Shown: in pieces, positions 1-20,348 of the stretch
Layout of the letters: each line of letters begins with the position of its first letter
Numbering within the stretch: the stretch's first letter is position 1
Virus record (IMG/VR): IMGVR_UViG_3300001352_000077
Span: 1,027-24,528 of that record
DNA: 23,502 bases
Source of the DNA: a virus
Strand: one strand, 5' to 3'
Translations under genes and position numbers: made by a program
The notes under the pieces: generated by a model
Seen by the model: the letters and a program-made list of their open reading frames with translations, nothing else
What the model was told of the DNA's origin: nothing
Database searches by the model: none

Positions 1-3000
1 GCACCGGGTAGTCCCCAACAATTAATCGCCACAGGATTGATAAATCCTGATAATTTTCCTTATTATTTCGAAACAACCAATTTTTCGGGCACTTCAGGTT
101 CGACATGTATCACATATGAATTAATAGATACCGTAACAAGTTGTTCTTGTACTGGTAGTGTTAATTTAGTTACTCCGACACCGACACTGTCATTTACACC
201 GACACCAACTCCTACGTTAACCCCTATATCCGGTGTCATACCTCGTTTAACCGTAAATAATGTTTTTGAAGCGGGACCGGGTGGAGGAACAACCACCACT
301 TACGTTAATATAATTTCTAATATATTAGTTAATGTCAACACTACAATCTCTTTTGATTTAAAATTAAAAGATGATGTGGGGACGACTGTCACTCAAAGTG
401 GTTCAGTATCTATCACCGTCAGAGAGTCGTTAGGTTCAACTGAATTAACCTTTAGTATACCTTTTTCCGATTTACAACAAGGTTATTATGAGTTTGAAAA
501 CATTGTATGTTCAGACGCTAATGCGATAATTAACGTAAATTCTGATTCACAATATTTAAATAATACTTTTCCACCTCCCCAATACACTACACATGAATGG
601 ATTAATTGTTGTAATCCTAAGGATACTATATTAGCCAGAGTTTTATTAACGGAAACTCAAACGGGGGGTTGGGTATTTAATGGTAATGCGGTCACTCATA
701 ATGGTACTTGTTGGGTTAGTAATGGACAGGTAACAGGTCAACAAACACAATTAATTTTTAACGGACCATCAGCTCAAAGCTGTCAAAGCTCGATATGTAC
801 TAGTTTATGTTCAGACCAACCAGAGGATAAATTTGCCGCATATGCAAAATCTTGTTGTCCCCCATATGATGTTACTGTAGTGACTTTTGCTATGGACTAT
901 TTACCTGAAAATGGAACTATAGTATTTTTTGATGGGATAATGTATGATGGAAACGCTCAGATTGAGCCTGGTTGTTATACTTTATTTGGGGTGAATGGTT
1001 TAGACGCAAGTGATGTAATACACTCAGTATCGAGTACTCATCTATCATGTCTACAATGTTTTAATTATAATCAAAATAACTTTGACCCATGTGAACAAAC
1101 AAACAGTTTATTTAGAGCTGAAAATTGTTGCAATAGCGGAGACCAAATAACGGTACAATTACTTTTAAATTCTACACCTATATTATCCCTTAACCCTGGA
1201 TTTTTCTATAACGGTAACTGTTATAGACTTCTCTACATGGAACAAAATCAAAATAATCCCTCAATTATAATTAGTCAAAACAGTTTTGTGTTTAATAACA
1301 TTTGTGGTGAACAGTTATGTCCTGATTGTCCAACGCCAACACCTACACCCACACCAAGTACAACTCCCGACTCATGGACTATCGTAACTAACCTATTGAC
1401 ACTGGAAGGTTGTTGTGATGGAATTACCTATACTGCAAATACCACATTAAACGTATCTGCAAACGTTAATGACTACGTTTATTTTATTAATAATAACTCA
1501 TCTTATAGTAGTAGTTTTACTTCTGGATGTTACAAAATACTTTCATCGTCGGCACAAACAGGGCCTTCACAAGGGACTATTACCGAAAATTATGGGTCAG
1601 TAAGTTGTACTTCATGTACAAATAATCATCCTTGTTTACAAAAATATACAGGTTGTTCCGAACAATGTACCGTAGTTTCATATCCTTACGACACAGTACC
1701 GTATACAAACGCAGATGGTGTGACATACAATATACCTACAGTAATTCAAGAACCATCACATTTGGCACCTTTAGCGGATGAAAATGGTGTTATAACTGAC
1801 GCCGCAATGTTTGCGTGTTTCATTTTTTATCTTAATAGTCCATGTACTAATATTGAATATTTTTGTGATACGTTTGGTGGAGTTGACGGGGTCCTTACTA
1901 CTTTGGACCTACTTGTAATGTTGTCAATATATGGAGAATTACAATCATATATTCAAGAACAAATAACATGTCCTTCGGTGTATACTCAAGGTCTTAATCC
2001 AACACTAAATGGTATTTACTACGTCACTCAAGAAGAAAATTGCTATGAGTATGTGGGAGATGTTAACAGTATAGACCAACCTGTCATTAATTTTAGTATT
2101 GATACTGTATACTCAGGATGTACAGAATGTATTGAAGATGAGATTCCTACACCAACACCTACACCTTCAATGACACCAACACCATCTATAACACCAACTA
2201 TAACACCATCTATAACACCAACTAATACGGTTACCCCCACAGTCACTCCAAGTTCGACACCTACACAATTTGTATATAAAGTATTATTAAGTGGGTGTTG
2301 CGATAATGAAACATATTTGGAGCATGTTCAGTTTACTAATCAAATAACTCAATCAAATGACACTTTCTATTTTGGTGGTGACGGGACTCAAAACATATTA
2401 CCACAATGTTATACTGTGATAAACTTTGTATTAGACAATACTTTAACACCTTCTTTTACAATAGACAATAGTACCGGATTTGATAACTGTTCTTCGTGTT
2501 TAGCGTCAAACCCATGTACTTCATTATATCGAGCGGAGTCTTGTTGTACAAGTGGAGTTGAAGATTTGTTTGTTACAGTAGTGGGAGACCAACCTATTTT
2601 AGGATTTCATGGATTCTCATATTCAGGAAATTGTTTTGTATTCATTGAAGGTCAAGGTAGTGGAAGCGGTAGTATTACAATAAATTCAGACAACTTTTTA
2701 GAAAATATATGTACTGACTTAATATTAAACCCTCAACTATGTGAACCATGTCCAACAGTTACACCTAGTGTGACACCATCAGTAACTGTGACACCATCAG
2801 TAACTATGACACCATCAGTAACTATGACACCATCGGTAACTATGACCGTAACACCTTCAGTGACTCCAAGTTCTTCACCACCACTACCCATTGTTTATTA
2901 CGAAGTGATTCCGTGTTGTTCAGCAGTTAGTGATGATACTGATGGGTATGTTTTGGGTGTTATTTTTAATGGTACCATCACATCTCTTAATAATGGTGAC

Positions 3001-4257
3001 GTATTTGTTTGGAATTATTCCAACCCTGGAGACCCCTTATCGTGGAGGGTAATCGGAACTTCACCTTCGGAAGATGTTGCATATTTTTATTTAGACGACG
3101 AAGATATATTTCAGGGAGGAGTAAATAATTGTTTCGATGCCGCTAATGCATTCGATATAGAGTGTACAGTGACGGGTTATTTTACCGGATGTACAACAGG
3201 AAACGGATATTTTATATGGGATTCGAGTGGCGACTTAACGGGACCAGATTTTAGCTACATACCCCAATACGGCGCATCGGCCACTTATTATTTTGTGGAC
3301 TTTCAAGACGAGTTATCAGTAAATGGGGATTGTTATCTTAGCTTTGTTCCTAGTGAATTAGCAATCCCGTGGTCTGGCGTAACACAGTTAGGTCCCGTTG
3401 TAGGACAGGTTTTAACTTACCCCTTAGGATGTGAAAGTTGTGCATCAAATACACCGACACCAACACCTACCATCACACCTACTATCACACCATCAATCAC
3501 ACCTACCATTACTCCAACACCTTCGGTAACGTCATCACCTATACCTGAAGCTATACAGTGTGCTGATAATTTTACTATTAGTACTTCAAACTTTAATAAT
3601 GTTTTAAACCCCGATGGGACTATACAATCATATTCTACATCAAAGACCGTTATAAATGCGACACTTAATTTATCGTCTTGTGCGGGTACGGTAAAATTCG
3701 CATTATACGCACAGAGTGCTCATGACCGGTTTGTTGTTAAAAATAACTCAGATGAGGTTGTTATCGATAGTTTACTGTTAGGTCAACCATCTAATGAGTC
3801 TTTGGTTGATAGTAGAGTTGAGAATAGTCCGTATATATGTAATGTATTTACGTGGAATAACGACACTGACCAGTTAGAGTTCACCAGCACCCAATCGGTA
3901 CCTGTTACGGTAACCGACTTCCCTTACCATTCGGATGCTGGTAATTACACATATCCATTATATGATAATGTATGGGACGATAATGGTGTTTCTAGATATG
4001 GTGCAAAAGGTCAAATTGGAGGTACTTTAGAATATTTTAATCTTAATAGTAATGTTTATGTATCTCCTGGCTCATGCGGCTTGACCCCTTCAATCCCCCT
4101 AGATACTTATGCGGGTTGTGGAGGATATTCAAATGGCTCACGAGTATTCTCTTTTGAAAAACCTCAGGGAGAATCAATTTATACTTTAACAGTTTACGGA
4201 GGGTTATTTAACAGTACCGCTTACGGGTTCAAAATTATAGAATGTCCGTCTTGTTAA
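1..4257 (+). CDS. Cys-rich, Thr-Pro-linker fibre/adhesin-like protein (5' end outside window)
   Basis: The reading frame is open from base 1, so the gene starts outside the window; the TTG at 37 need not be the start. At least 1,418 codons are visible. Cys-rich segments alternate with five low-complexity Thr-Pro linkers (near nt 175-231, 1330-1371, 2146-2268, 2752-2883 and 3451-3540). The segments share a loose pattern: a Cys-Cys doublet, then about 30-40 residues later Gly-x-Cys-Tyr/Phe, then Cys-x-x-Cys. Doublets lie at nt 607, 853, 1126, 1411, 2296, 2542 and 2914. The last ~240 residues lack linkers and look like a beta-rich terminal domain. A long modular beta protein with flexible linkers in a phage structural region suggests a fibre or host-contact protein. 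That role is inferred; I recognise no named family. The next gene starts one base after its stop, so the two are probably co-transcribed. Confidence 0.7.
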   Translation, partial: APGSPQQLIATGLINPDNFPYYFETTNFSGTSGSTCITYELIDTVTSCSCTGSVNLVTPTPTLSFTPTPTPTLTPISGVIPRLTVNNVFEAGPGGGTTTTYVNIISNILVNVNTTISFDLKLKDDVGTTVTQSGSVSITVRESLGSTELTFSIPFSDLQQGYYEFENIVCSDANAIINVNSDSQYLNNTFPPPQYTTHEWINCCNPKDTILARVLLTETQTGGWVFNGNAVTHNGTCWVSNGQVTGQQTQLIFNGPSAQSCQSSICTSLCSDQPEDKFAAYAKSCCPPYDVTVVTFAMDYLPENGTIVFFDGIMYDGNAQIEPGCYTLFGVNGLDASDVIHSVSSTHLSCLQCFNYNQNNFDPCEQTNSLFRAENCCNSGDQITVQLLLNSTPILSLNPGFFYNGNCYRLLYMEQNQNNPSIIISQNSFVFNNICGEQLCPDCPTPTPTPTPSTTPDSWTIVTNLLTLEGCCDGITYTANTTLNVSANVNDYVYFINNNSSYSSSFTSGCYKILSSSAQTGPSQGTITENYGSVSCTSCTNNHPCLQKYTGCSEQCTVVSYPYDTVPYTNADGVTYNIPTVIQEPSHLAPLADENGVITDAAMFACFIFYLNSPCTNIEYFCDTFGGVDGVLTTLDLLVMLSIYGELQSYIQEQITCPSVYTQGLNPTLNGIYYVTQEENCYEYVGDVNSIDQPVINFSIDTVYSGCTECIEDEIPTPTPTPSMTPTPSITPTITPSITPTNTVTPTVTPSSTPTQFVYKVLLSGCCDNETYLEHVQFTNQITQSNDTFYFGGDGTQNILPQCYTVINFVLDNTLTPSFTIDNSTGFDNCSSCLASNPCTSLYRAESCCTSGVEDLFVTVVGDQPILGFHGFSYSGNCFVFIEGQGSGSGSITINSDNFLENICTDLILNPQLCEPCPTVTPSVTPSVTVTPSVTMTPSVTMTPSVTMTVTPSVTPSSSPPLPIVYYEVIPCCSAVSDDTDGYVLGVIFNGTITSLNNGDVFVWNYSNPGDPLSWRVIGTSPSEDVAYFYLDDEDIFQGGVNNCFDAANAFDIECTVTGYFTGCTTGNGYFIWDSSGDLTGPDFSYIPQYGASATYYFVDFQDELSVNGDCYLSFVPSELAIPWSGVTQLGPVVGQVLTYPLGCESCASNTPTPTPTITPTITPSITPTITPTPSVTSSPIPEAIQCADNFTISTSNFNNVLNPDGTIQSYSTSKTVINATLNLSSCAGTVKFALYAQSAHDRFVVKNNSDEVVIDSLLLGQPSNESLVDSRVENSPYICNVFTWNNDTDQLEFTSTQSVPVTVTDFPYHSDAGNYTYPLYDNVWDDNGVSRYGAKGQIGGTLEYFNLNSNVYVSPGSCGLTPSIPLDTYAGCGGYSNGSRVFSFEKPQGESIYTLTVYGGLFNSTAYGFKIIECPSC
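2146..2268 (+). repeat. Thr-Pro linker with 24-bp tandem repeat
   Basis: Low-complexity DNA encodes a chain of T-P-T/S-I/V-T-P units. A 24-bp unit at 2179-2202 is repeated almost exactly at 2203-2224. It lies in frame, so changes in copy number would only lengthen or shorten the linker. Confidence 0.8.
2773..2844 (+). repeat. Four in-frame 18-bp tandem repeats (TPSVT[V/M])
   Basis: Four consecutive 18-bp units (2773-2790, 2791-2808, 2809-2826, 2827-2844) differ at only one or two bases. Each encodes Thr-Pro-Ser-Val-Thr followed by Val or Met. They form the core of the fourth linker of the fibre-like protein and look like recent slippage or unequal-recombination products. Confidence 0.9.
3451..3540 (+). 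repeat. Fifth Thr-Pro linker repeat
   Basis: Degenerate 12-bp-class repeats encode alternating T-P-T-I-T-P and T-P-S-I-T-P units between the last Cys-rich segment and the C-terminal domain of the fibre-like protein. Confidence 0.75.
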
Positions 4258-4708: not shown

Positions 4709-7468
4709 ATGGTCTCACAAGAAGAAATTGAAAAGTTCCTCCACGGAGAGGATGAAGAAAAATATATTGTAGCCTTAGAATATGACTATAGGTCTAATAA
4801 GATTTTTAAGGTTATTCAACACCCTACAAACGGGAAACAAATTAAAACAGACTCTTTTATACCGTTCGCATGGGTCGGCGATTTAAAGGGTAAGAATTTT
4901 TATAACGGTTCTAAACATGCACAAAAACAAGCCATGTCAGAACACGGTATTCTAATCGAAACGTTAGATACTCATGGCGATGTAAGAATGGAACAAGGTC
5001 TGAAGTATATGGTAAAGACAACCAAGACCTACTCAAACTTAGTTAACTTTTTTAAAAATGGAGGATTAAATCCTTGGGATAGAGAGAATACAAATGCGAT
5101 TGCGATACTATCTCCAGTAGAACAGTATCTTTGTCAGAAACAAAAAAGATTGTTTAAGGGATTTGATGAGTATGATGAAGTACATCGTTTTGTGTTTGAC
5201 ATCGAGACCACAGGTTTGGATGCAAATACTGAAAAAATATTCCTAATCGGCATGAAAGATAATAGAGGTTATGAAAAGGTGATATCGGCACAAAATGAAG
5301 AGGAGGAAAAGGAGATGATTGTCGAATTTTTTAATGCCATTAATTATCTAAAACCGACATTAGTTGGTGGATATAACTCAGCGTTTTTCGATTTTCCTTT
5401 TATTTTAACAAGAGCGGAAATGTTGGGTTTGGATATAGGAAAAATAGCTAAGACCCTTAACCCCGAAAAAAAACTTAGACAAAAACAAGGGATGTTGAAG
5501 CTTGCAAATGAGATGGAAGATTATACTCAGACCATGATGTGGGGGTATAATATTGTAGACATTGCACATGCCGTTAGGAGAGCTCAAGCAATTAACTCAG
5601 ACATAAAAAGTTGGGGTCTTAAGTATATTACTCAATTTATCGGAGCGGAAAAGGAAAATCGTGTATACGTCAAAGGTGATAAGATTGGAAAAATATATTT
5701 TGATAATAAAGATTATTATTTCAACCCTAAGACTGGCGGTTATAAAGAGGTGGGCTCTCCCGGTACAGAAAATCTTATGGAAAGGTTCCCTGGTCACTAT
5801 GAAGAAGTAAACGGTGAGTACCTCATCGAGAGATATCTGTATGATGATATTTGGGAAACTATGGTGGTTGACGAAGAGTTCAACCAAGCCAACTTCCTTC
5901 TCGCTAAACTTGTACCTACAACATATGAGAGATTGTCTACAATGGGTACTGCAACACTATGGAAAATGATTATGATGTCATGGTCGTATAAACATGGGCT
6001 CGCAATACCTAAGAAAGGGGACAAGCGTTCATTTACAGGGGGTCTGTCTCGACTATTACAGGTCGGGTACTCCACTGACGTGTTGAAGCTCGACTACTCG
6101 TCTCTATACCCCTCTATTCAACTCGTGCACGATGTATTTCCTAAGTGTGATGTTACGGGGGCAATGAAGAGTATGTTGAAGTATTTCCGTGATACCCGTA
6201 TTAAATATAAGAAGTTAGCATCCGACCATTACCTTTCGGACCCTAAATTGTCTTCACAGTACAATCGAAAACAACTTCCGATTAAGATTTTTATTAACGC
6301 ATTCTTTGGTTCTCTGTCCGCTCCTCACGTATTTCCATGGGGTGATATGGATATGGGTGAACAAATTACTTGTACGGGTAGACAATACCTAAGGCAAATG
6401 ATTATGTGGTTTATGGAGCGTGGGTACGAACCATTAGTTATGGACACTGATGGTGTTAACTTTGCGGTTCCTGATGGTAGAGAAGACCACAAATACGTAG
6501 GTAAAGGTTTGAATGGTCTTGTAGAAGAAGGTAAAGAATATTCGGGCTCAGAAGCAGATGTTGCAGAATATAATGATATATTTATGAGAGGAGAAATGGG
6601 TCTCGACACTGACGGTCAATGGCCAGCAACTATTAATGTAGCACGTAAAAACTACGCACTACTTACAGATAAGGGTAAGGTTAAACTTACAGGAAACTCG
6701 ATTAAGTCTAAAAAACTTCAGACGTATGTTGCGGAGTTCTTAGATTCAGGATTGAATATGTTGTTGGACGGTAAAGGTCAAGAATTCTTAGACTCATACT
6801 ATGAATATCTAGGTAAATTATATAACAGAGAAATACCTATTTCTAAAATAGCGAACAAAGCTCGTGTAAAACAGTCTCTTGACGATTACAAAGTTCATAT
6901 TACAAAAAGAACTAAGTCAGGTTCTTTTATGTCTCGACAAGCACATATGGAATTAGCATTGGCAAATAACTTAAGTGTCGGGTTAGGAGATACAATTTAC
7001 TACGTAAATAACGGAACCCGTAAATCTCATGGAGATGTACAAAAGAAAAAAGATGAGGTGGTAATTAACTGTTATCATGTAAAAGAAAAAGATATCGAAG
7101 ATACACCAGATAAGTTAGGAGATTATAATGTTCCTCGTTATGTAACTGCGTTTAATAAGAGAATTGAACCTCTATTAGTTGTATTTTCTCCTGAAATACG
7201 AGATGAAATATTAATTGAAAATCCTGAAGATAGACCGTTTTTTACAAAAACTCAAACTAAATTAGTTAGAGGATACCCAAGAAAAGAAGGTGACCAAGAT
7301 ACTTTAGATGAGGTACTTACCCTATCTGACACTGAAAAAGTGTTTTGGAAAAGTGTTGGAATTAACCCTTTCTACATGTATTTAGAAGGAACCGAAGAAT
7401 TAGTTAACACTAATTATGTTGAGAAAAATAAAATTCTTATGAATTCTTTAGACCATCAGACGACATAA
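4709..7468 (+). CDS. 43: Family B DNA polymerase (T4 gp43-like)
   Basis: Replicative DNA polymerase with 3'-5' proofreading; at 919 residues it is close to T4 gp43 (898). Visible motifs in order: Exo I D-I-E-T-T-G from D164; Exo II Y-N-S-A-F-F-D with N223 and D228; an Exo III-like Y-L-Y-D-D segment; motif A D-Y-S-S-L-Y-P-S from D462; motif B K-x-x-x-N-A-F-F-G with K526 and N530; motif C D579-T-D581. All catalytic carboxylates are present, so both activities should be intact. The ATG follows a host-type promoter and a leader hairpin with no Shine-Dalgarno sequence. It is the only replication gene on the plus strand here. Its 3' end overlaps the last minus-strand gene by 32 bp, so the two transcripts converge. 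Confidence 0.97.
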   Translation: MVSQEEIEKFLHGEDEEKYIVALEYDYRSNKIFKVIQHPTNGKQIKTDSFIPFAWVGDLKGKNFYNGSKHAQKQAMSEHGILIETLDTHGDVRMEQGLKYMVKTTKTYSNLVNFFKNGGLNPWDRENTNAIAILSPVEQYLCQKQKRLFKGFDEYDEVHRFVFDIETTGLDANTEKIFLIGMKDNRGYEKVISAQNEEEEKEMIVEFFNAINYLKPTLVGGYNSAFFDFPFILTRAEMLGLDIGKIAKTLNPEKKLRQKQGMLKLANEMEDYTQTMMWGYNIVDIAHAVRRAQAINSDIKSWGLKYITQFIGAEKENRVYVKGDKIGKIYFDNKDYYFNPKTGGYKEVGSPGTENLMERFPGHYEEVNGEYLIERYLYDDIWETMVVDEEFNQANFLLAKLVPTTYERLSTMGTATLWKMIMMSWSYKHGLAIPKKGDKRSFTGGLSRLLQVGYSTDVLKLDYSSLYPSIQLVHDVFPKCDVTGAMKSMLKYFRDTRIKYKKLASDHYLSDPKLSSQYNRKQLPIKIFINAFFGSLSAPHVFPWGDMDMGEQITCTGRQYLRQMIMWFMERGYEPLVMDTDGVNFAVPDGREDHKYVGKGLNGLVEEGKEYSGSEADVAEYNDIFMRGEMGLDTDGQWPATINVARKNYALLTDKGKVKLTGNSIKSKKLQTYVAEFLDSGLNMLLDGKGQEFLDSYYEYLGKLYNREIPISKIANKARVKQSLDDYKVHITKRTKSGSFMSRQAHMELALANNLSVGLGDTIYYVNNGTRKSHGDVQKKKDEVVINCYHVKEKDIEDTPDKLGDYNVPRYVTAFNKRIEPLLVVFSPEIRDEILIENPEDRPFFTKTQTKLVRGYPRKEGDQDTLDEVLTLSDTEKVFWKSVGINPFYMYLEGTEELVNTNYVEKNKILMNSLDHQTT

Positions 7469-7769
7469 TAAACCAACCATCTCTTATAAATCTAAGTTCT
7501 ACAGACGCACCATTCTGTAATTCTATTTCATCGAATTCCTCATCAATCGAATAATCTCCGACCACTAAAACATCGGTTAACGCTTTAATTGTTACGTGTT
7601 CAGTCGTATTTGAATCTAATTGTAATTTACAGACTTTAACATCTTTAATAATAATCGCAGCCTCTCCGCTTGTGGTATACGATTCACTACTTAAAAGTGT
7701 TGATTCTGAAGTTTTAATGGTTAGACCATTAATAATTTTTGTAATTGGTGTTGATTTAAAAATTGCCAT
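7437..7769 (-). CDS. Small hypothetical, probably virion-associated protein
   Basis: This 110-residue protein has alternating short polar and hydrophobic stretches typical of a beta-rich fold. It ends with a V-E-L-R-F-I-R-D-G-W-F-I-M segment, a kind of 'dG-W-x-I' ending often seen at the C-terminus of small phage fibre or decoration proteins. No named family is recognised. Its ATG comes one base after the stop of the neck-like gene, so it is co-transcribed with it and probably serves the same structure. Its last 32 bp overlap the end of the DNA polymerase gene on the opposite strand. Confidence 0.65.
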   Translation of the reverse strand: MAIFKSTPITKIINGLTIKTSESTLLSSESYTTSGEAAIIIKDVKVCKLQLDSNTTEHVTIKALTDVLVVGDYSIDEEFDEIELQNGASVELRFIRDGWFIMSSDGLKNS

Positions 7770-7770
7770 A

Positions 7771-8883
7771 TTATATTGAATAAAATTGTCTTGGGAATGC
7801 CCGATATTGTAATGATTTATTTAAATTTTCCGCTTCATTAGCTTGTCTTTCCATCATTTTATCAGGCCTTAATCTTTCTAACCTTTGAGTTAACTCTTCT
7901 ATTAGTTTTGATTTTTCGTCTTTTGATTCTGTTAAAAGTGAGTCATACTCCATTTGTATTTCGGAGTCAGGTGTTTTTAGATTTCCTAGGTACTTACCTC
8001 TTACCCTCCCTAAAGATTCTTTTACATAAGCAGTAAACCATCTCCTAACCCATGTTTGGGCTGGATTATTTAACTCATCCCATAACATTTCATCTATCGG
8101 GATATCTGAAGGTAATCTTACTATGTCAGGATTTTCAGCTAAACAGGTCTCACGGTCATCAGTTTCATAATACCAATACCACACAACGTATTGATTATAT
8201 TGAATATTACCAAAATCAAATTTACCTCCAGGTACATTCATTAGATGAACCGCCTTTTTACCTTCAGGTAGTGCAGTAATTCTATAAGTTAAATCTCCTG
8301 AAATTATTCTTCTCTTAATGTTAATATCTTGCATTCTAAGTAACATATCAAAGGCCGGTGTTATAAAATAATTTCCCTGAGAACCCATTTGAGAGAATCC
8401 CGCTCCTCCACCTAAACCTACACCACCAAAACCACCAAAACCACCCATAAATGGGTCAAAAAATGCCGCATCTAACTCTGCCCTACTAAACCATAATAAC
8501 TCATTAATTTCTCTTCCTGCAGGTACCTCATAAATTTGTTGTCCAGGAACTAAAGTAATAAAATCTTTTTTTAATACTGAGTCACCTCCAGCCTGTAAAC
8601 CGACAATTTTTGAGTAAGCGTATGTATACTGTGTTTCCCAATCTAAACTACGAGTTATAAAAGCTCTAGTTACCGACTGTTCATCTAAATTTAGCCCGTA
8701 CAATGATGTCCATTGAGCCTCAATTAACCAATCGTTAACATATTGTGCGTAGTCTTGAATTGATAATTCCATTAGTGAATCCATCATTTCATCGGTAATT
8801 TCTACACCACGTAAGGGAGCACCTAATAGATGTTTTATACGAGTATATAGCTTACTTCTTTGTGGTTCGTTAATTGCTGACAT
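7771..8883 (-). CDS. 13: Neck protein, T4 gp13-like
   Basis: This 370-residue protein is a probable head-tail connector or head-completion protein. It starts with a helical segment (T-D-E-M-M-D-S-L-M-E-L, residues 30-40) that resembles the opening of gp13-type neck proteins. A beta segment follows with G-Q-Q-I-Y-E-V-P (114-121) leading into I-N-E-L-L-W. In the last third, W-V-R-R-W-F-T-A-Y-V-K-E-S-L-G-R-V-R-G-K-Y is the usual helix of the neck family, then a charged helical tail. T4 gp13 is 309 residues; the extra length includes a Gly-rich loop at 145-170 and the tail. Identification is by pattern, not alignment. A TATTTAT-type promoter candidate precedes the ATG, and the small gene at 7437-7769 follows immediately. 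The other neck and tail-completion genes lie on the opposite strand from 12328. Confidence 0.6.
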   Translation of the reverse strand: MSAINEPQRSKLYTRIKHLLGAPLRGVEITDEMMDSLMELSIQDYAQYVNDWLIEAQWTSLYGLNLDEQSVTRAFITRSLDWETQYTYAYSKIVGLQAGGDSVLKKDFITLVPGQQIYEVPAGREINELLWFSRAELDAAFFDPFMGGFGGFGGVGLGGGAGFSQMGSQGNYFITPAFDMLLRMQDINIKRRIISGDLTYRITALPEGKKAVHLMNVPGGKFDFGNIQYNQYVVWYWYYETDDRETCLAENPDIVRLPSDIPIDEMLWDELNNPAQTWVRRWFTAYVKESLGRVRGKYLGNLKTPDSEIQMEYDSLLTESKDEKSKLIEELTQRLERLRPDKMMERQANEAENLNKSLQYRAFPRQFYSI

Positions 8884-8897
8884 GATATATTTTATAT

Positions 8898-8904
8898 ATA
8901 AATA
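8898..8904 (-). promoter_or_regulatory. TATTTAT element upstream of neck gene
   Basis: On the minus strand TATTTAT is followed by ATATAAAATATATC and the ATG, with 21 nt from the element's first base to the start codon. It belongs to the recurrent set described in the findings. Confidence 0.45.
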
Positions 8905-8922: not shown

Positions 8923-10482
8923 TCAAGACTTATATTGAGACTCTTTATCAAAAACATATTTCCCGTTTTTAATTTGGGTGTTGTTATTATCAAATACCAC
9001 TATTCCTTTATTTTTATTATGAAATACTAACATATCGGTTTTATACTGTTTTATAACACCTGTTCCGACCATAGTTATTTTCCCATCTTCAATAATATAA
9101 TCTCTAAATGGTTTTATTTGTACAGTTTTATCTCCATTATCTGTCCTTATAATCGCATCAACACCACCGATAGCATCTATAACACTACCTAATTCACCAA
9201 CTTTTTTTACGTTAGAAACTCCGAACACTTTTTGTAATTCTTTAACCGCTAAATTTTCAGTTTTATCACCTTGTTTATTTTTTCTATTAACCGCGGTATA
9301 CATAGAGTCAAAAGTGTTTGATGTATTTTTAAATAGACTATCTTTCCAATGGATGATATATTTTAAAAATCGATATAATTCCTTTATTTGTTCATTTTTA
9401 TTTTTTCCGTAAAAACTAATCGGAGGGTGTCCATAATGTTTTAAAGTAATATTAATGTCATTTTTTAAAATACAAAATGTAGTTGCGTTTGTATTGATTT
9501 TATTTAATACCGACCGACCTCCTTCAACACTCCCTTTATATTCAAAGTCATATATACCCGATAACTGCTCTCCTTCTTTTTCTCTCCAATAATCTTTAAA
9601 GATTTCTTTAAAAACCTTATCAATTACGGTACGATATTTCCACTTTATTTGAGGATTGGTGTTAAATAATTCTATGGTCTGTTTAACTTGTCTTGAATTA
9701 CACCCCTGACTCTCAATTTCAACAATAAGATTTTTTTTATTAAACGACTCCTTTATTGAGGATTTAGGGTTAGATGTATATAAGTTGTTCACAAAATCCC
9801 AATTCACTACTGACCAAAAGTTTTTTATATAATCGTCTTTTTTATTTCTATATTTTAAATAATAAGAGTGTTCCCATAAATCCAAACCTAATAATGGAAG
9901 TCCACCGTCTTTAATGGTATTCATAAGAGGGTTGTCTTGATTTGCAGTAGTCATTATTTTTAACCTATTATTTTTTGTTAAAACAAGCCATACCCACCCT
10001 GAACCAAATCTTTTTTGAGCTGCGGACTCAAATAACTTTTTAAAGTTATTAAACGTTTTATACTCTTTAATAATTTTCTCATAGATTTCTCCTGAACATC
10101 TTTGCCTTTTAGGACTTAACATTTTCCAAAACAATGCGTGGTTGAACGCTCCGCCAGCATTATTTTTTACAGTTCTGTCGTACATTGATATTGTTTTCAC
10201 AATATCTTTTAATTTTTTGTCCTTACCCTTTTTATCTTTTATCGCATCATTAAGTTTATTAACATAACCTTTATAATGTTTATTGTAGTGTACGTTCATA
10301 GTTTCTTTATCTATAAAACGTTCTAAGGCTGAATAAGAGTAAGGTAATCTTTCGATACCTATTTTTTTCATTTCTTTTAAAATTTCTTTTGGGACGTTCG
10401 GTGATACTTTTCTTTTTATCCCTTCACTTATAATCTGATTTTCTATATCAGTTATTTTATTTAATGCCCTTTTAGTACCCAT
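8923..10482 (-). CDS. Mn-type superoxide dismutase fused to a PD-(D/E)XK nuclease-like domain
   Basis: This 519-residue protein has three parts. Residues 1-43 are a basic helical leader containing I-I-S-E-G-I (17-22). Residues ~44-240 are a full Fe/Mn superoxide dismutase domain, converting superoxide to oxygen and peroxide. Predicted metal ligands are H65 (N-V-H-Y), H115 (N-N-A-G-G-A-F-N-H-A-L-F-W), D201 and H205 (G-L-D-L-W-E-H-S-Y-Y). Second-sphere H69, Y73 and Q182 (A-N-Q-D-N-P-L) and dimer-bridging E204 are present. Gln in the C-terminal half with Gly-Gly near H115 favours Mn. Residues ~400-519 carry E409, G-V-D442-A-I-I and Q455-I-K457, the E...D...QxK pattern of PD-(D/E)XK nucleases; this call is weaker. 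The segment ~240-400 is unassigned. It lies between helicase and neck genes with its own TATTTAT element. The leader may be a capsid-targeting peptide. Confidence 0.9.
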   Translation of the reverse strand: MGTKRALNKITDIENQIISEGIKRKVSPNVPKEILKEMKKIGIERLPYSYSALERFIDKETMNVHYNKHYKGYVNKLNDAIKDKKGKDKKLKDIVKTISMYDRTVKNNAGGAFNHALFWKMLSPKRQRCSGEIYEKIIKEYKTFNNFKKLFESAAQKRFGSGWVWLVLTKNNRLKIMTTANQDNPLMNTIKDGGLPLLGLDLWEHSYYLKYRNKKDDYIKNFWSVVNWDFVNNLYTSNPKSSIKESFNKKNLIVEIESQGCNSRQVKQTIELFNTNPQIKWKYRTVIDKVFKEIFKDYWREKEGEQLSGIYDFEYKGSVEGGRSVLNKINTNATTFCILKNDINITLKHYGHPPISFYGKNKNEQIKELYRFLKYIIHWKDSLFKNTSNTFDSMYTAVNRKNKQGDKTENLAVKELQKVFGVSNVKKVGELGSVIDAIGGVDAIIRTDNGDKTVQIKPFRDYIIEDGKITMVGTGVIKQYKTDMLVFHNKNKGIVVFDNNNTQIKNGKYVFDKESQYKS

Positions 10483-10493
10483 TATTTTTATAT

Positions 10494-10500
10494 ATAAATA
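10494..10500 (-). promoter_or_regulatory. TATTTAT element upstream of the superoxide dismutase fusion
   Basis: On the minus strand TATTTAT is followed by ATATAAAAATA and the ATG, 18 nt from the element's first base to the start codon. It is nearly identical in layout to the element before the neck gene. Confidence 0.45.
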
Positions 10501-10521: not shown

Positions 10522-12306
10522 TCACCTTTCTTGTGAAATCATATTTAATATTTCTTCCATTACGTCACCTTTACCTTCATTATCACCCATAACTGTTTCA
10601 AAAATATTTTTCTTTTTAGTTAGTATATTATATATAATACCTTCTATTGTATTTTCTAATATCGGGTAATAAACTGAAACTGAGAACTTTTGTCCATATC
10701 TATACGCCCTATCTTCGGCTTGTGAATGGTCAGCAGGAACAAAAGATAGGTCATTCATTATAACCGCCTCTGCAGCTGTTAGGGTTATTCCTACTCCCGC
10801 AGCTTTTAGATTACCTACAAAAACTTTGATGTCATCATTGTTTTGAAACTCGTCTACAGATTCCTGTCTTTTAGGTTTGGTCATTTTACCATCTAACTTA
10901 ACTGACTCTTTACCAAAATGTTCGTTTATTTTATTTAGTGTATCTGTAAAATTTGTAAATATTATTACTTTTTTACCTTGGTCTATTATGTTCTGAGCAA
11001 TTTCTATTGTGTCTTTTATTTTTTCTTCAGCAATAACTTGTCGGACTTTCATTAACTTAGAAAATTGTATTGTCAGTGAATTCGAGTCTTCAGATGAATT
11101 ATACCAATCATAGTATTCACCCATCAATTTTTTATATTCTTTAGACTTGGTTCTTAAATAAACTGGAGTTATTATTTTTTCAGGTAAGTCCAAGATGTCT
11201 TCCTTTAGTCTTCTTAATACTTGTGGTTTTGTCCTGTCTCTTAACTCTTCTAGATTAGACGCTCCCGAAACATTCCAAACTCTTTTACTACCAACACTAA
11301 ATTGATAACCTGCACAGTACCTTATAGCGTAGGCCATCCAATTTTCTGCGACTGGAGAGTCTACTAAGTCTAAAAGATTATAATAATTCATCGGCCTTGA
11401 GGTCATCGGAGTTCCCGTTAGTAACCATACCTTACCTATTTTGTTAGCGATGTCATTTACAATTTTTGTTCTTTGAGCTTTTTTATTTTGAACGTAGTGA
11501 GCTTCGTCCATTACAATCAAATCAAAACCATAATTTAAAATCTCTGATTTATCGGGGTATTTTGGGTCGTGAAAGTTTTTTAATATATCATAATTTATAA
11601 TGGTATACTCGGAAGGTTCCCACTTTTTACCCTCAATAATTGAAATAGATTTTTCCGTATAATTTTGTATTTCTCTCTCCCAGTTAATTTTTAAAGATGC
11701 GGGGCATATAATTAATACTTTTTCTATCCCCATCTCTATCGACGCAATAACTGTTGAGGTTGTTTTTCCGAGACCCATATCATCTGCCAATATATATTTG
11801 TCATTACCAACAAGTTTTTCTATAGATTCTTTTTGGTGTGAAAGCGGAGGTCTATGTGAGTACTTACTATAGTCGATTTTTACTTCCCTTTGTTTGTTTT
11901 TTGTTAACGCAACTTTAGGTAACCATATGTCTGTAAGTTCCTCACTTTCAAATAACTTACCCCATATGTGGTACGACTTTTCTTTCTCCACTAATAATTT
12001 TTCCACATAAATTTTTTCAGGTCTCTTTGGTAGTAACTTGTCATTCATTAGTTTTTGACCAAAGTAACTATCAAGTTCCACCCACCTTCTAGCTATTTTG
12101 GGTACAGTATCTTTAAATTTAATTATGTAATCCGCTTGGGCACGAGTAAGTTTAAAATGATTAAATTTTTTCATCTTATCCTGTAACCGGATAATGTAAT
12201 TATTATACCCCTCGTATTTCTCTAAAATACGAAGAGCCCTCACTTCAGGCAAGCTATTTAATGTTTTATTTTCCAAAAGTCGACTAAATACACTTAAATA
12301 TAACAA
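10522..12306 (-). CDS. SNF2-type DEAH helicase/translocase (UvsW-like role)
   Basis: Superfamily 2 ATPase of 594 residues acting on duplex or branched DNA. Motifs: Walker A D-D-M-G-L-G-K-T (175-182), C-P-A-S-L (201-205), DEAH (267-270), L-T-G-T-P (296-300), a helicase C region with A-A-G-V-G-I-T-L-T (502-510), and Q-A-E-D-R-A-Y-R-Y-G-Q (529-539). The last motif is characteristic of SNF2/Rad54/SMARCAL1 proteins rather than classic T4 UvsW. In phages such proteins are thought to help fork remodelling or recombination; the exact role is not visible. Residues 1-140 form an unassigned helical domain. No ATG is available: the frame's upstream stop is at 12319-12321 and the first Met is residue 45, so translation probably starts at the TTG at 12306 or the TTG ten codons later. 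Confidence 0.93.
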   Translation of the reverse strand: MLYLSVFSRLLENKTLNSLPEVRALRILEKYEGYNNYIIRLQDKMKKFNHFKLTRAQADYIIKFKDTVPKIARRWVELDSYFGQKLMNDKLLPKRPEKIYVEKLLVEKEKSYHIWGKLFESEELTDIWLPKVALTKNKQREVKIDYSKYSHRPPLSHQKESIEKLVGNDKYILADDMGLGKTTSTVIASIEMGIEKVLIICPASLKINWEREIQNYTEKSISIIEGKKWEPSEYTIINYDILKNFHDPKYPDKSEILNYGFDLIVMDEAHYVQNKKAQRTKIVNDIANKIGKVWLLTGTPMTSRPMNYYNLLDLVDSPVAENWMAYAIRYCAGYQFSVGSKRVWNVSGASNLEELRDRTKPQVLRRLKEDILDLPEKIITPVYLRTKSKEYKKLMGEYYDWYNSSEDSNSLTIQFSKLMKVRQVIAEEKIKDTIEIAQNIIDQGKKVIIFTNFTDTLNKINEHFGKESVKLDGKMTKPKRQESVDEFQNNDDIKVFVGNLKAAGVGITLTAAEAVIMNDLSFVPADHSQAEDRAYRYGQKFSVSVYYPILENTIEGIIYNILTKKKNIFETVMGDNEGKGDVMEEILNMISQER

Positions 12307-12328: not shown

Positions 12329-12843
12329 TGAGTAATAGAAAGGTTCCAATTACAAGATTAGAAAAGTTTTTCGGGTCGGAAGACTTTGAGTTAGATATCG
12401 CAATGGGTCGAGAATGGCTTGAGGGTGATATGAATTTTAGGTTAGTTTTATATAGAATCGACCAACAAAAAACAGTAACTGATGATGTTTACGGTGAAAC
12501 CGTAGAAGACGGAGTAAAGTTCCATCCTCCCGTTGAATTTAGGGGGTACGTCCAAATAGAACAACCTGAAAATCAAAATTACGGTAATAGTAACATGACA
12601 CAAATGGAGCCGGGTAACTTAAAGGTTGGCGTATATCAAACGACTTTAGATGAGTTAGAAATAGATATTAATTATGGTGATTATATAGGTTACTATGAGA
12701 CTGAATCTCGTGTTAGATACTACTCGGTATCTAATGACGGAAGAGTCACGAGTGATAATAAACATACTTATGGTGGTTACAAACCTTATTATAGGTCAAT
12801 TACTGCATCACCTGTTAGTGAAAATGAATTTAGAGGATTATGA
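12328..12843 (+). CDS. Neck/head-completion protein, possibly T4 gp14-like
   Basis: This 171-residue protein contains D-D-V-Y-G-E-T followed by K-F-H-P-P-V-E-F and a later N-Y-G-D-Y-I-G-Y-Y segment. Gp14-type neck and stopper proteins have a similar arrangement: a [LV]-[YF]-G-E turn, an aromatic/proline stretch, then a beta barrel. Its place directly before a gp15-like gene supports a neck or head-tail joining role. T4 gp14 is longer (256 residues), so the assignment is tentative. The ATG has no Shine-Dalgarno sequence and lies only five bases after the TATTTATC element. Its stop overlaps the next start as ATGA, so the two are translationally coupled. Confidence 0.6.
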   Translation: MSNRKVPITRLEKFFGSEDFELDIAMGREWLEGDMNFRLVLYRIDQQKTVTDDVYGETVEDGVKFHPPVEFRGYVQIEQPENQNYGNSNMTQMEPGNLKVGVYQTTLDELEIDINYGDYIGYYETESRVRYYSVSNDGRVTSDNKHTYGGYKPYYRSITASPVSENEFRGL

Positions 12844-13313
12844 ATAGATATCTATTAAAAGAAATTAATAAAATGAAGACTCATATGGGTTTAATTATTG
12901 AACAGGAGGAAGAATTAACTCCTGAGGATTTAACTGGTTTGAGGGTTATGGTATATTATAACTTACATAAACATACATTTTCAGTGACTTATGGGGGTAG
13001 GGTAATTTTGTATGCCGACTACGTTAAATTAAGAAATGTAGAGTTTAGGGTAAGAAAGGGGGGAAAAGACAAAGTAAGACAAGAAATGAGAAAGAACGTA
13101 CACGCATTTGTTATTGGTGATTTAGTTGACTATTGTCAGTTCCCTTGTGAAGAAATGCCTGCAGAAACTAATGATAACGTAATCACATATAACCCATACA
13201 AATACGATTCATTTGTTAAAAAAGATAGCGAAGAACCAATTTATAACGCAAATGAGATTGATATGATTAATACTCGAAATAAAATCTTCCATATAAATGA
13301 AATAGTAATCTAA
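12840..13313 (+). CDS. Conserved-looking phage protein of unknown function
   Basis: This 157-residue protein is not assigned to a named family. After an N-terminal helix (Y-L-L-K-E-I-N-K-M-K-T-H-M-G) and an acidic stretch, it has a compact region with Y-Y-N-L-H-K-H-T-F-S-V near residues 38-48. A V-R-K-G-G-K-D-K-V-R segment, then M-R-K-N-V-H-A-F-V-I-G, lie at about 72-95. The basic patch could contact nucleic acid, but nothing catalytic is evident. The N-terminal helix ends in L-I-I-E, a possible [LI]-x-E prohead-protease site. It overlaps the preceding gene by four bases (ATGA), and its TAA shares one base with the next ATG, so it is expressed with the neck and tail-completion genes. Confidence 0.75.
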   Translation: MNRYLLKEINKMKTHMGLIIEQEEELTPEDLTGLRVMVYYNLHKHTFSVTYGGRVILYADYVKLRNVEFRVRKGGKDKVRQEMRKNVHAFVIGDLVDYCQFPCEEMPAETNDNVITYNPYKYDSFVKKDSEEPIYNANEIDMINTRNKIFHINEIVI

Positions 13314-14650: not shown

Positions 14651-17600
14651 ATGGCAGCAGAAAAAGTATTCGTATCTCCAGGTGTATATACATCAGAAAG
14701 AGATTTAAGTTTTGTGGCTCAAAGTGTCGGTGTAACGACTTTAGGTGTCGTCGGTGAAACCTTATCAGGTCCGGCGTTCGAACCTATCTTCATTACAAAC
14801 TTTGATGAGTTTACCTCATTTTTTGGGGGGACAGAACCAACTAAATTTGTAAACACACAGATTCCAAAATATGAGGCGGCATATATTGCCAAAGCCTACT
14901 TACAACAATCCAATCAACTTTTTGTGACTCGTGTCTTAGGTTTATCAGGATACGATGCTGGACCATCATGGTCAATATCAACGGTGGGTAACGTAAATAA
15001 ATCATTAATTACTCCTAAAGATTCTGACGGAATTGCTTATACAATAACTTTTAGTGGTGTATCAGGTAATAGTAGTTCAACTGAAATTACTGATTTTAGT
15101 AACTTACCTTCATCTATAGAAAGTGTGTTCGGATTACCTTATACAACATTTTCAGGTAATATATCAACATTACAGGGCAACTTTGAATCTGCGGTTTATC
15201 AAAGTATTGTTAACCCCGTCAGTTCAGGAGCCACATCATTTATGTTTGGTACTGTTAGTGGCGAAACTTATGACGCAATAACTGGAGCTTCGGGAACATG
15301 GACAGGTACAACTAACGTATTGGGTGTGGATGGTCTTACCATTGATACCGCAGATTTTGAAGCGTCTGAAAATGATTCATGGTATTACGCTTTATTCCCA
15401 TATAATAGTGGTACAGGTGAATACAGTGGTGTCGGTTTTGGATTGTCTATCACAGGATTAACAAATACTGTAGGTAACAATTATACAGGTGTGGGTGTTG
15501 TATATACTACCACATATACAGGAACACCAATCACTGATTACCATAATATGGTTGTTAGTACACTAAGGTCAAGAGGGATATCAACAACTAGTAATTCTAA
15601 TAATCCCGATTACGAAGTTTCAGGATTAACCAATGTAACAATTAACTCTACAGGAGTATATTCAGGAATAACTAATAATCCATTCTCTAATTTCCAAATT
15701 TCAGGTATAACAAACGACTCAGAGATATTTACGTTCAACACATCACTTTCTTTAAGTGACCCTAACTTTATAAGTAAAGTGTTAGGTCAAAGTAATTTTT
15801 CTAAACCAAGTAATGAAATTCCATTATTTGTCGAGGAAATTTATTATAACTTATTAAATACAGGATACAAAGAAGGTAAGATTAGAGGATTAAATACTAC
15901 TTTATTAGGATTACAAAGTGCGAGAGAAGATGTTGATAATACAGGTATCGGATGGTACTTAGATAGGTATCAAACCCCCTCTACACCATATTTAGTTTCA
16001 GAATTAAGAGGTAATGAAGTTTCCGACTTATTTAAAGTTATTTCAATCTCAGACGGTAACTCGGCGAACAGAGAGATTAAAGTCTCTATAATGAATATAT
16101 CATTTAATAACCTAACCTTTGACGTTGTTGTTAGAAGTTTTTATGATACCGATTCTAACCCAATCGTATTAGAAAAATTCACAAACTGTACCATGGATAT
16201 AAATCTTAATAGTTATGTGGCTAAAAAAATCGGTACAGCTAATGGAGATTTTGAGTTAAAGTCAAGATATATTATGTTAGAAGTAAATGAAGAGGCTCCG
16301 TCCGATTCATTACCTTGTGGTTTTAAAGGTTACCAAACTCGACAGTACAGTAGTTATAAATCACCACACCTACTTTATAAGACTAAGTATGATACTCCAG
16401 GTGAGGTGTTATTTAACCCTCCTTTTGGGTCTTCTAATGGAGATAACTTAACAAGAAGTGCGGGCGATAACCCAAGAAGAGTTTTCTTAGGTGTATCGAA
16501 TACTGTCGGTATTGATGTCGACTTTACCTCTTATAAGGGTAAACAAAATCCGACTAACTTATCTACCGCTACTGAGTCATCTCCGTGGGCGGAATTAACA
16601 AAAGGATATCATATGGACTCAGGAGCGACTGTAGTTCTAATCCCATCTCAGTATGTAACTTCGGGTGAAACTGCGTTTGAGGTTGGTGACGCATCATTCG
16701 ATAGTGAACCTAACGAAGATAGTCCATATTACAGATTAAATTCTCGTAAATTTACATTAGTTCCTACTGGAGGATTTGATGGATGGGATATCTATCGAGA
16801 GTCTCGTACTAATGGAGATACATTTATATTAGGTAATAATGGATATCTACGTGGAGCGGCACCATCAGTTAGATTCCCAAGTGCAACAGGATGGGGGGCG
16901 TTTAAAACAATTGTTGGTCCAGATAAACAAGATTGGGGTAATACTGACTATTATGCTTACTTATGGGGTCAGTGGACTTTTGTTAACCCTGAAGCTGTAA
17001 ATATTAATGTGTTTACTACTTCAGGTATAGATTATGTTAATAACTCAAACTTAGTAGAGGAGGCGATTGATATGATTGAAACGGATAGAGCGGACTCAAT
17101 TTATATCTGTACCACACCTGACTATAACATGTTTGTTAATACTACGTCTAATTTTACAACTGACTTTATTTACCCACAAGAAGCGACCGAAAACTTAGAA
17201 GATACTGGAATTGACTCTAACTATACTGCAACTTATTACCCATGGATTCTTACAAGAGATACTGTTAATAACACACAGATTTACTTACCACCTACCGCTG
17301 AAGTTGTTAGAAACTTAGCGTTAACAGATAATATATCATTCCCATGGTTCGCATCCGCGGGTTATACAAGAGGTTTAGTAAATGGTATTAAAGCTCGTAA
17401 GAAGTTAACTCAAGATGATAGAGACATTCTATATAAAGGTAGAATCAACCCAATCGCAACTTTCTCAGATGTTGGTACAGTAATATGGGGTAATAAAACT
17501 ACTCAAGTTAAACAGTCAGCACTCGACAGAATCAATGTTAGAAGATTGTTATTACAAGCTCGTAAGTTGATTTCAGCAGTAGCGGTAAGACTATTGTTCG

Positions 17601-17836
17601 AACAGAATGATGACCAAGTAAGACAAGAATTCTTGGACTCAGTAAACCCAATCTTAGATTCTATCAGAAGAGATAGAGGTTTGATTGACTTTAGAGTTGT
17701 CGTTCAGAACACTCCTGAAGATTTAGATAATAACACCTTAGTAGGTAAAATATATCTAAAACCAACAAGAGCGTTAGAATTCATCGATATAGAATTCTTA
17801 ATTACTCCGACAGGTGCATCATTTGAGGATATCTGA
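14651..17836 (+). CDS. 18: Tail sheath protein (T4 gp18-like), enlarged
   Basis: This protein forms the contractile sheath around the tail tube. The N-terminus has the typical sheath opening (F-V-S-P-G-V-Y-T-S-E-R, residues 6-16) and T-N-F-D-E-F-T-S-F-F-G. The C-terminal domain (about 950-1061) has the family's conserved pattern: N-V-R-R-L-L-L, a helix pair, F-L-D-S-V-N-P-I-L-D, L-I-D-F-R-V-V and a last strand region with A-L-E-F-I-D-I-E-F. At 1,061 residues it is much longer than T4 gp18 (659). Most of the extra length is a Gly/Ser/Thr-rich, beta-type region at roughly 110-400 that would sit on the outer surface; other insertions are possible. The ATG is preceded by a TATTTAT element and an A-rich leader without Shine-Dalgarno. 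A strong terminator follows the TGA. Confidence 0.96.
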   Translation: MAAEKVFVSPGVYTSERDLSFVAQSVGVTTLGVVGETLSGPAFEPIFITNFDEFTSFFGGTEPTKFVNTQIPKYEAAYIAKAYLQQSNQLFVTRVLGLSGYDAGPSWSISTVGNVNKSLITPKDSDGIAYTITFSGVSGNSSSTEITDFSNLPSSIESVFGLPYTTFSGNISTLQGNFESAVYQSIVNPVSSGATSFMFGTVSGETYDAITGASGTWTGTTNVLGVDGLTIDTADFEASENDSWYYALFPYNSGTGEYSGVGFGLSITGLTNTVGNNYTGVGVVYTTTYTGTPITDYHNMVVSTLRSRGISTTSNSNNPDYEVSGLTNVTINSTGVYSGITNNPFSNFQISGITNDSEIFTFNTSLSLSDPNFISKVLGQSNFSKPSNEIPLFVEEIYYNLLNTGYKEGKIRGLNTTLLGLQSAREDVDNTGIGWYLDRYQTPSTPYLVSELRGNEVSDLFKVISISDGNSANREIKVSIMNISFNNLTFDVVVRSFYDTDSNPIVLEKFTNCTMDINLNSYVAKKIGTANGDFELKSRYIMLEVNEEAPSDSLPCGFKGYQTRQYSSYKSPHLLYKTKYDTPGEVLFNPPFGSSNGDNLTRSAGDNPRRVFLGVSNTVGIDVDFTSYKGKQNPTNLSTATESSPWAELTKGYHMDSGATVVLIPSQYVTSGETAFEVGDASFDSEPNEDSPYYRLNSRKFTLVPTGGFDGWDIYRESRTNGDTFILGNNGYLRGAAPSVRFPSATGWGAFKTIVGPDKQDWGNTDYYAYLWGQWTFVNPEAVNINVFTTSGIDYVNNSNLVEEAIDMIETDRADSIYICTTPDYNMFVNTTSNFTTDFIYPQEATENLEDTGIDSNYTATYYPWILTRDTVNNTQIYLPPTAEVVRNLALTDNISFPWFASAGYTRGLVNGIKARKKLTQDDRDILYKGRINPIATFSDVGTVIWGNKTTQVKQSALDRINVRRLLLQARKLISAVAVRLLFEQNDDQVRQEFLDSVNPILDSIRRDRGLIDFRVVVQNTPEDLDNNTLVGKIYLKPTRALEFIDIEFLITPTGASFEDI

Positions 17837-19026: not shown

Positions 19027-19515
19027 ATGGCTGATTTATTAATGAAAATGCCCGTACCGTATGAACCGAAAAGAAAAAATAGATTTGTTCTAAGTTTTCC
19101 TTCATCATTGGGTATTAACTCTTGGTATGTTGAGTCCACATCTAGACCTAACGTCCAAATTAACGCAACTGAGATTCCTTTCTTAAACACATCTACTTAT
19201 GTTGCTGGTAGATTTACTTGGAATACGATAAACGTGACGTTTAGAGACCCCATAGGACCATCGGCAGCACAAGCCTTAATGGAATGGGTAAGATTAACCT
19301 CAGAGTCCGTTACAGGTCGTATGGGATACGCAGCTGGTTATAAGAAAGACCTAGACCTTGAAATGTTAGACCCTACAGGAGTTGCGGTTGAAAAATGGAT
19401 TCTACAGGGTACTTTCTTAACTGATGTTAATTTTGATAGTTTGGGATATAGTGATGACGCATTGGCAACAATTACAGCGACATTACGTCCTGATAGATGT
19501 ATTTTGGTTTACTAA
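19027..19515 (+). CDS. 19: Tail tube protein (T4 gp19-like)
   Basis: This is the major subunit of the inner tail tube. Its 162 residues match T4 gp19 (163). Family pattern: a Pro-rich start (M-P-V-P-Y-E-P-K-R-K-N-R-F), a strand with W-Y-V-E-S-T-S-R-P, W-N-T-I-N-V-T-F-R-D-P-I-G, and a C-terminal segment with W-x-L-Q-G-T-F-L-T-D-V-N-F-D-S-L-G-Y. It has its own TATTTAT element and is followed by a strong terminator, fitting high-level late expression as a separate unit. There is no Shine-Dalgarno sequence; the leader is A-rich. Confidence 0.95.
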   Translation: MADLLMKMPVPYEPKRKNRFVLSFPSSLGINSWYVESTSRPNVQINATEIPFLNTSTYVAGRFTWNTINVTFRDPIGPSAAQALMEWVRLTSESVTGRMGYAAGYKKDLDLEMLDPTGVAVEKWILQGTFLTDVNFDSLGYSDDALATITATLRPDRCILVY

Positions 19516-19592: not shown

Positions 19593-20348
19593 ATGGACGA
19601 AGCGAAACAATATGGACAACAAGACTTTAATTTACCACATGACGTGGTAACACTTCCCTCGCAGGGTAAGTTTTATAAAAACAAAAAAAAGAGTCTTAAA
19701 ATTGGATATCTGACAGCTCAGGATGAAAATATTTTGGTATCTGCCGGAAACGGTAAAAATCCAAACATTATAAATGATTTAGTTAAAAATAAGATATATG
19801 AACCAGACGTTAAGGTTAATGACTTATTAGAAGGTGATTTAGAGGCTATTTTAATATTTTTGAGAAACACAGCGTTTGGTCCCGATTATAATTTTACATT
19901 AAGAGACCCTAAAACTAATAATTCATTTGAACATACGGTTCGTCTCGATGAGCTAAATTTCAAAAAACTTGAAAAAGAACCCGAAGAAGACGGGACATTT
20001 ACATTTAAACTACCTAAGTCAGGAAATATGGTAAAATGTAAACTACTTACGGTAGGAGAAGTACAGGAACTTAACGATATGTTAGAGAAGTACCCAAACA
20101 ATGTTACGGCCCCCATAGTAACCAATAGGTTATCAAAACAAATAGTAAGTGTAGACAACAACACCGATAGAGAGTTTATAACAAGCTTCGTCATAAAATT
20201 ACCAATTATGGATTCTAAATTCATAAGAAATAGCCTTTCTAATTCGGAACCAAAATTAGACTTAGAAAGGAGTTTAAACGCCCCGTCAGGAGAAGAGTTG
20301 ACAGTTAGAGTCACCTTTGGGGTGGAGTTTTTTCGGCCTTTCTTCTGA
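19593..20348 (+). CDS. 26: T4 gp26-like baseplate/tail assembly protein
   Basis: The 251-residue protein fits the T4 gp26 baseplate family pattern. It has L-P-S-Q-G-K-F-Y near residue 21, I-G-Y-L-T-A-Q-D-E-N-I-L (about 37-48), an I-I-N-D-L-V segment, and L-L-E-G-D-L-E-A-I-L-I-F-L-R-N-T-A-F-G-P-D-Y. The first two segments and the last are hallmarks of that family. It lies between the tail tube and tape measure genes, the place where other phages encode tail assembly chaperones, and its end overlaps another frame by 32 bp, as chaperone pairs do. It may therefore chaperone the tape measure protein. Transcription is unclear: a terminator ends just upstream and no TATTTAT element is seen, so readthrough from the tube promoter is likely. 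Confidence 0.8.
   Translation: MDEAKQYGQQDFNLPHDVVTLPSQGKFYKNKKKSLKIGYLTAQDENILVSAGNGKNPNIINDLVKNKIYEPDVKVNDLLEGDLEAILIFLRNTAFGPDYNFTLRDPKTNNSFEHTVRLDELNFKKLEKEPEEDGTFTFKLPKSGNMVKCKLLTVGEVQELNDMLEKYPNNVTAPIVTNRLSKQIVSVDNNTDREFITSFVIKLPIMDSKFIRNSLSNSEPKLDLERSLNAPSGEELTVRVTFGVEFFRPFF

Follow-up and report, generated by a model that had tools for sequence, protein, structure and literature searches.

A superoxide dismutase fused to a predicted PD-(D/E)XK nuclease in a conserved operon of uncultured giant phages

The window, a stretch of 23,502 nucleotides from the IMG/VR virus record IMGVR_UViG_3300001352_000077, is a piece of the genome of a large myovirus-type phage. The minus strand at 8923–10482 encodes a 519-residue protein, which begins with an ATG at 10482 and ends with a stop codon at 8923–8925; an ORF reading of the plus strand across the same interval is full of stops. 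An earlier note on this DNA had described the frame as a superoxide dismutase (SOD) joined to a nuclease-like domain. The frame is present as claimed, with the minus strand as its coding strand, and translation places H65, H115, D201, H205, E409, D442, Q455, and K457 at the positions given to them in that note. Directly upstream, in the same operon direction, lies a gene for an SNF2-family DNA helicase (10522–12306, minus). The fusion gene is followed on the same strand by a gene for a neck or head-tail adaptor (Ad2-like) protein (7771–8883) and by g4, a small conserved gene (7437–7769, minus), which is the last of the operon. The window also encodes a tail sheath (14651–17836), a tail tube (19027–19515), a T4-like baseplate protein (19593–20348), and a family B polymerase (PolB, 4709–7468). 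The sheath, tube, baseplate, and neck genes bear out the claim that the fusion lies within a cluster of phage virion genes. A 270-kb IMG/VR contig, G001 (L014), carries the fusion gene at 100% identity.

Three other features of the window were observed. A long open frame at 1–4257, in which TPTPTPSITPT threonine/proline linkers repeat between Cys-rich modules, probably encodes a surface or adhesion protein. Positions 12840–13313, within the structural cluster, match the mycobacteriophage L5 gp82 family of function-unknown proteins (PF25735, E 1.6e-31). The top PADLOC match of the SNF2 helicase is ZorD (E 7.5e-49), chiefly over the generic helicase core; PADLOC describes ZorD together with an Mrr-like nuclease, and the pairing of a helicase with a nuclease in the window is suggestive.

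Relatives of the protein are encoded by at least 600 stretches in IMG/VR, from which 79 loci were kept as the comparison set. In these loci, which belong to independent contigs from many metagenomes, the SOD and the nuclease share one frame of about 510–531 residues with 48–100% identity. The protein of locus L015 has 484 residues when read from an ATG, and a GTG start gives it the usual length. Searches with the C-terminal half alone again recovered fused genes, save for L160, the SOD half of which is broken, probably by a sequencing frameshift. Each of the seven relatives searched has one SOD per contig. A fused entry in UniProt, A0A6J5L953 from an uncultured Caudovirales phage, has 501 residues, is 43% identical over its full length, and is named “superoxide dismutase”; A0A8D9CCA0, with 1113 residues, matches with an E-value of 3e-16. 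The search of phage databases for the same fusion, which the earlier note had proposed, has thus returned the fusion many times over. A misassembly, a frameshift, or a chance read-through of two genes, of which no case was found apart from the broken SOD half of L160, has next to no probability and is ruled out by the same-length frame in the 79 full-length orthologues, by the UniProt homologue, and by the conserved linker region; the frame is not the pair of misjoined genes that the earlier note had allowed for. The fusion is real, and uncultured giant phages of a large group have widely kept it.

None of the isolate phages in INPHARED has the fusion, and several jumbo phages among them have a separate, distant SOD. 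SOD matches in INPHARED records named as Staphylococcus, Enterococcus, Listeria, and Salmonella phages were set aside as bacterial-looking, the records being probably contaminated or mislabelled. The “phage” records OR850395, OR846594, OR846937, OR845917, and AFYI01000005 carry bacterial-looking SODs; they probably stem from contaminating host DNA or are bacterial contigs under a wrong label. SODs have already been reported among the oxidative-stress genes of freshwater phages (PMC6802176). A description of the fusion was not found in open-licence papers, and it appears that the domains are known and their lineage-wide fusion is undescribed.

Judged by its sequence, the segment comprising residues 44–235 (9778–10353, minus) is a complete SOD of the predicted Mn type. 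Residues 44–123 match the Pfam family Sod_Fe_N (E 3.8e-24, 85.4 bits against a cut-off of 27), residues 130–233 match Sod_Fe_C (E 8.6e-38, 128.9 bits against a cut-off of 20.9), and a profile of the SOD family matches MnSODs from the PDB with an E-value of 4e-74. The metal ligands H65, H115, D201, and H205 are invariant in 38 relatives, as are H69, Y73, G110, W163, W165, Q182, W203, and E204. The pair Gly110 and Gln182 is the Mn-type arrangement. The [Mn] model of NCBIfam scores higher than the [Fe] model (189.5 and 169.7 bits), with both scores under the equivalog cut-off. With two Pfam domains above their gathering scores, four ligands, and the Mn-type residues, the complete Mn-type domain of the earlier note is confirmed. 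The dN/dS of the SOD half in close pairs is 0.02–0.06. The full-length structure model is poor across this half, with pLDDT often below 60, because the alignment was shallow; therefore, the identity of the SOD rests on sequence and not on that model.

The phage SODs form a clade of their own, with support of 100/100, apart from bacterial SODs; one long-branch bacterial row falls inside the clade, probably as an artefact. The nearest bacterial relatives are mostly from Bacteroidota. We infer a single capture of a Bacteroidota-like SOD, which would have been joined to a nuclease that the phages already had. The host of the phage is probably a Bacteroidota bacterium.

The remainder of the protein comprises a helical middle domain (residues 236–400; 9283–9777, minus) with a conserved GRSxxNKxNTN motif, one portion of which domain is also present in stand-alone phage homologues, and a predicted PD-(D/E)XK nuclease-fold domain (residues 401–519; 8926–9282, minus). 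Residues 236–519 matched no family in Pfam, PHROGs, NCBIfam, or PADLOC, and a profile search of PDB chains was also empty. The whole protein has no match to phrog_218, the T4 gp4 family, in PHROGs. The controls of a search for a TnsA-like family gave no match. An AlphaFold model of residues 236–519 alone, built with 30 relatives, has a pLDDT of 86.5 and a pTM of 0.82. The twelve best PDB matches of this model in Foldseek are archaeal Hjc resolvases and the homing nuclease I-Ssp6803I (2ost), all of which are PD-(D/E)XK proteins. The top match, Hjc 4tkd, has an E-value of 0.007 and a probability of 0.98, and no E-value is below 0.001. The structure matches are individually weak, yet there is no competing fold, and lower-ranked viral matches include PD(D/E)XK and Holliday-resolvase proteins. 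The nuclease assignment of the earlier note is therefore upheld by the structure search and not by sequence profiles; in so divergent a superfamily, a match to a described sequence family would help but does not define membership.

Conservation is a stronger argument for a nuclease than the statistics of the structure matches. The pattern E409...D442...Q455-x-K457 is invariant in the 38 relatives and goes beyond what chance would give. In an alignment of five fused and four SOD-less homologues, which are 18–26% identical, the only invariant columns are G405, E409, G440, D442, Q455, and K457, and these six positions correspond to the catalytic pattern of the PD-(D/E)XK superfamily in its Q-x-K form. 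The nuclease half has a dN/dS of 0.04–0.20 in close pairs. The catalytic sites that had been described as intact and under selection are invariant, and both halves evolve under purifying selection. Structure and conservation together support the prediction that residues 401–519 are a PD-(D/E)XK nuclease.

Profile searches of named records identified SOD-less homologues of the nuclease in a 735-kb phage (LR756501, 290 residues) and a 635-kb phage (LR745206, 251 residues). A second, SOD-less copy is present in G001 (304 residues, L260:1375-2289) and in the 322-kb relative G002 (318 residues, L259:1204-2160). The stand-alone copy of G002 adjoins a prohead-protease-like gene, which was named by eye, and the G001 homologue of this protease-like gene sits among capsid-position genes; the placing of the G002 copy beside the protease suggests a role in head assembly. 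The LR756501 protein used as a query found no SOD-less homologue in IMG/VR, and a pattern scan of bacterial genomes for the C-terminal half gave no confirmed case.

The order SNF2 helicase, SOD-nuclease, neck protein, and g4 on one strand is found in the 79 loci wherever the contig end permits, with a wider gap ahead of the neck gene in a few of them. A promoter-like element, TATTTATA, is positioned at 10493–10500 on the minus strand, 18 nucleotides before the start codon of the fusion gene. The neck gene has its own copy at 8897–8904, and further copies in the window lie upstream of 20545 and 22678, before virion genes. The element precedes the fusion gene in most orthologues; when 57 different upstream regions of orthologues are compared, 53 contain TATTTAT. 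In G001, TATTTATA stands before 46 of 285 ORFs, mostly 10–25 nucleotides ahead of the start, against an expectation of about 3 from genome frequency to 7 from shuffled sequence. The genes that it marks there include those of the tape measure, the tube, the neck, the scaffold position, and the prohead protease; PolB and the helicase of G001 have no TATTTATA upstream. From its position and company, the element is a candidate late promoter-like element of the phage lineage. The fixed operon order, the purifying selection, and the element shared with virion genes therefore give the SOD-nuclease the appearance of a late core gene.

The explanation favoured here, which is put forward tentatively, is that the gene encodes a late core protein in which a nuclease fused to a captured SOD combines DNA processing at packaging with the removal of superoxide. 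The starting point would have been a phage PD-(D/E)XK nuclease that carries a helical domain; proteins of this kind also occur in SOD-less form, both in these phages and in related ones. It would have gained the Bacteroidota-like Mn SOD and further a short N-terminal extension. The SOD half would dimerise as MnSODs do and remove superoxide, and its dimer would hold two nuclease domains together. The paired nuclease halves could then cut branched or overhanging phage DNA in packaging and head completion. Their partner would be the neighbouring SNF2 helicase, and they would act at the portal or neck or ahead of it. The SOD activity may shield DNA, packaged or naked, or it may shield the infected cell.

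The proposed job is that of T4 gp4, a REase-fold nuclease required for packaging and head completion (PMC7824862), and of T4 gp49, a portal-bound resolvase that clears branched DNA (PMC9958956). Family profiles of gp4 (phrog_218) and RuvC found neither in five related contigs of unproven completeness, and endonuclease VII had no match above the cut-off in these contigs, with a sub-threshold match in G002 (E 1.6e-4). T4 served as the positive control for the gp4 and endonuclease VII profiles; the resolvases and nucleases covered by the search were gp4, endonuclease VII, and RuvC. The Hjc-like nuclease linked to the helicase and neck genes is a natural candidate for the job of gp4 and gp49. DNA processing could, however, already fall to the stand-alone paralogues that G001 and G002 have.

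Residues 1–43 (10354–10482, minus) form a helical and fast-evolving extension, the dN/dS of which reaches 0.57. An extension of 35–56 residues is present in nearly every orthologue examined. It contains [IL]-x-E sites resembling those of prohead proteases, ISE|G at 23–26 and LKE|M at E37, and hints faintly at a capsid-targeting sequence. E37 is found in 36 of 38 rows, and the next residue is M in 35 of 38. Met38, which is the first residue of a conserved MKKIGIE(K/R)LPY stretch, may be a relic of the SOD's own start. It is conceivable, at a rather low probability, that the extension is a T4-type capsid-targeting sequence cut by the prohead protease, so that the SOD-nuclease would be packaged and delivered at the next entry. 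An [IL]-x-E site shortly before the SOD is present in 21 of the 23 sequence clusters; shuffling gives 12.8, and the clusters share ancestry. Among the genes of the genome is one for a T4-like prohead protease; next to it in G001 (112195), a protein that resembles a capsid protein in size and place carries a LINE|A site of the same kind. However, [IL]-x-E is common in helices, the extension is unlike the other N-terminal tags of the genome, and E is mostly followed by M, possibly the relic start, and not by the A, G, or S that is usual in T4 prohead-protease sites. T4 heads use capsid-targeting sequences of 10–20 residues (PMC5694885). The extended version, in which the SOD-nuclease is packed into the head by a cleavable signal and ejected with the genome as a DNA-processing enzyme and antioxidant at entry, as a core trait of the lineage, is slightly less probable again.

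The G001 gene near the prohead protease (112195–113991, minus; L261-L274) encodes a protein of 598 residues, in which ASHLINE|ASSS at about residue 60 resembles the cleavage site of the T4 capsid protein. Unrelated G001 proteins (L261-L274) have common short N-terminal tags, MKIKLTETQLNKVI..IKEQ, MKKIIKLKESDLENIVKRVLAEQ, and MKELIRKILRE. Examples are the ORFs at 155334, 156292, 184811, 185059, 187064, 188685, 193336, 208494, 211524, and 212477. A loose form of the tag pattern is found in 20 of 285 G001 ORFs, against 8.4 in shuffled sequences, and several tagged ORFs come after the TATTTATA element. The tags could be head-targeting signals.

Host-takeover nucleases are usually early genes. The SOD-nuclease gene, in contrast, sits in a fixed late operon with helicase and neck genes and has an upstream element of the type found before virion genes, and the protein matches none of the defence families of PADLOC. 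These points bear on the “dual-function effector” of the earlier note, here read as a protein that would remove host superoxide and degrade the DNA of the host or of competitor phages during infection. In favour of such an effector, the active sites of both halves are intact; for freshwater phages, a protective role of SODs for the infected host and the phage has been proposed (PMC6802176), and REase-fold domains of phages have been proposed to attack the DNA of the host or of superinfecting phages (PMC7824862). The present analysis shows no sign that host DNA is attacked, and the effector is considered improbable. Given the place in the operon, the late promoter-like element, and the stand-alone homologues, a core gene of DNA processing or morphogenesis fits better. 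DNA processing at packaging together with oxidative protection would be the preferred function.

MnSODs are dimers or tetramers, and PD-(D/E)XK nucleases are commonly dimers in action. The SOD half might serve the nuclease structurally, as a dimerisation module, with its enzyme activity incidental. This is more doubtful than the effector, since the four ligands and H69, Y73, W163, W165, Q182, W203, and E204 are invariant in the 38 relatives and the dN/dS of the SOD half is low, whereas a mere scaffold would have no need of the second-sphere residues.

Phage SODs are treated as auxiliary metabolic genes (AMGs), that is, as optional cargo. A SOD welded to a nuclease in a core operon that is fixed across 79 loci implies a function in phage DNA or assembly rather than in host metabolism. 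The UniProt label has led to the nuclease half being overlooked, and AMG counts that include the gene would mislead. The analysis also identifies a divergent family of predicted phage nucleases with stand-alone members, which profile libraries miss.

The SOD half shares with the MnSODs of Bacteroidota and Bacillota (PF00081/PF02777) the two-domain organization, the ligands, and the Gly110/Gln182 pair, and is 45–52% identical to those of Bacteroidota. It differs from them in being embedded in a 519-residue protein with N- and C-terminal additions and in forming a separate clade. Stand-alone SODs of jumbo phages, such as Pseudomonas phage PA5oct and Vibrio phage 2.275.O, and SODs of freshwater phages are likewise phage-encoded Fe/Mn enzymes; however, the matches in isolate jumbo phages span about 175–185 codons with 26–27% identity and leave the nuclease part unmatched. 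A0A6J5L953 is the same fusion named only for its SOD, its nuclease half being unremarked as far as could be found. The predicted nuclease resembles archaeal Hjc and I-Ssp6803I in its predicted fold and its E...D...QxK site; by contrast, it has no detectable sequence homology to them, has an extra helical domain, and is fused to SOD. Although there is no sequence match to T4 gp4 or gp49, and the place beside the neck and helicase genes is unlike that of T4 gene 4, the proposed job of phage DNA processing near packaging is the same, and gp4 is also a REase-type nuclease.
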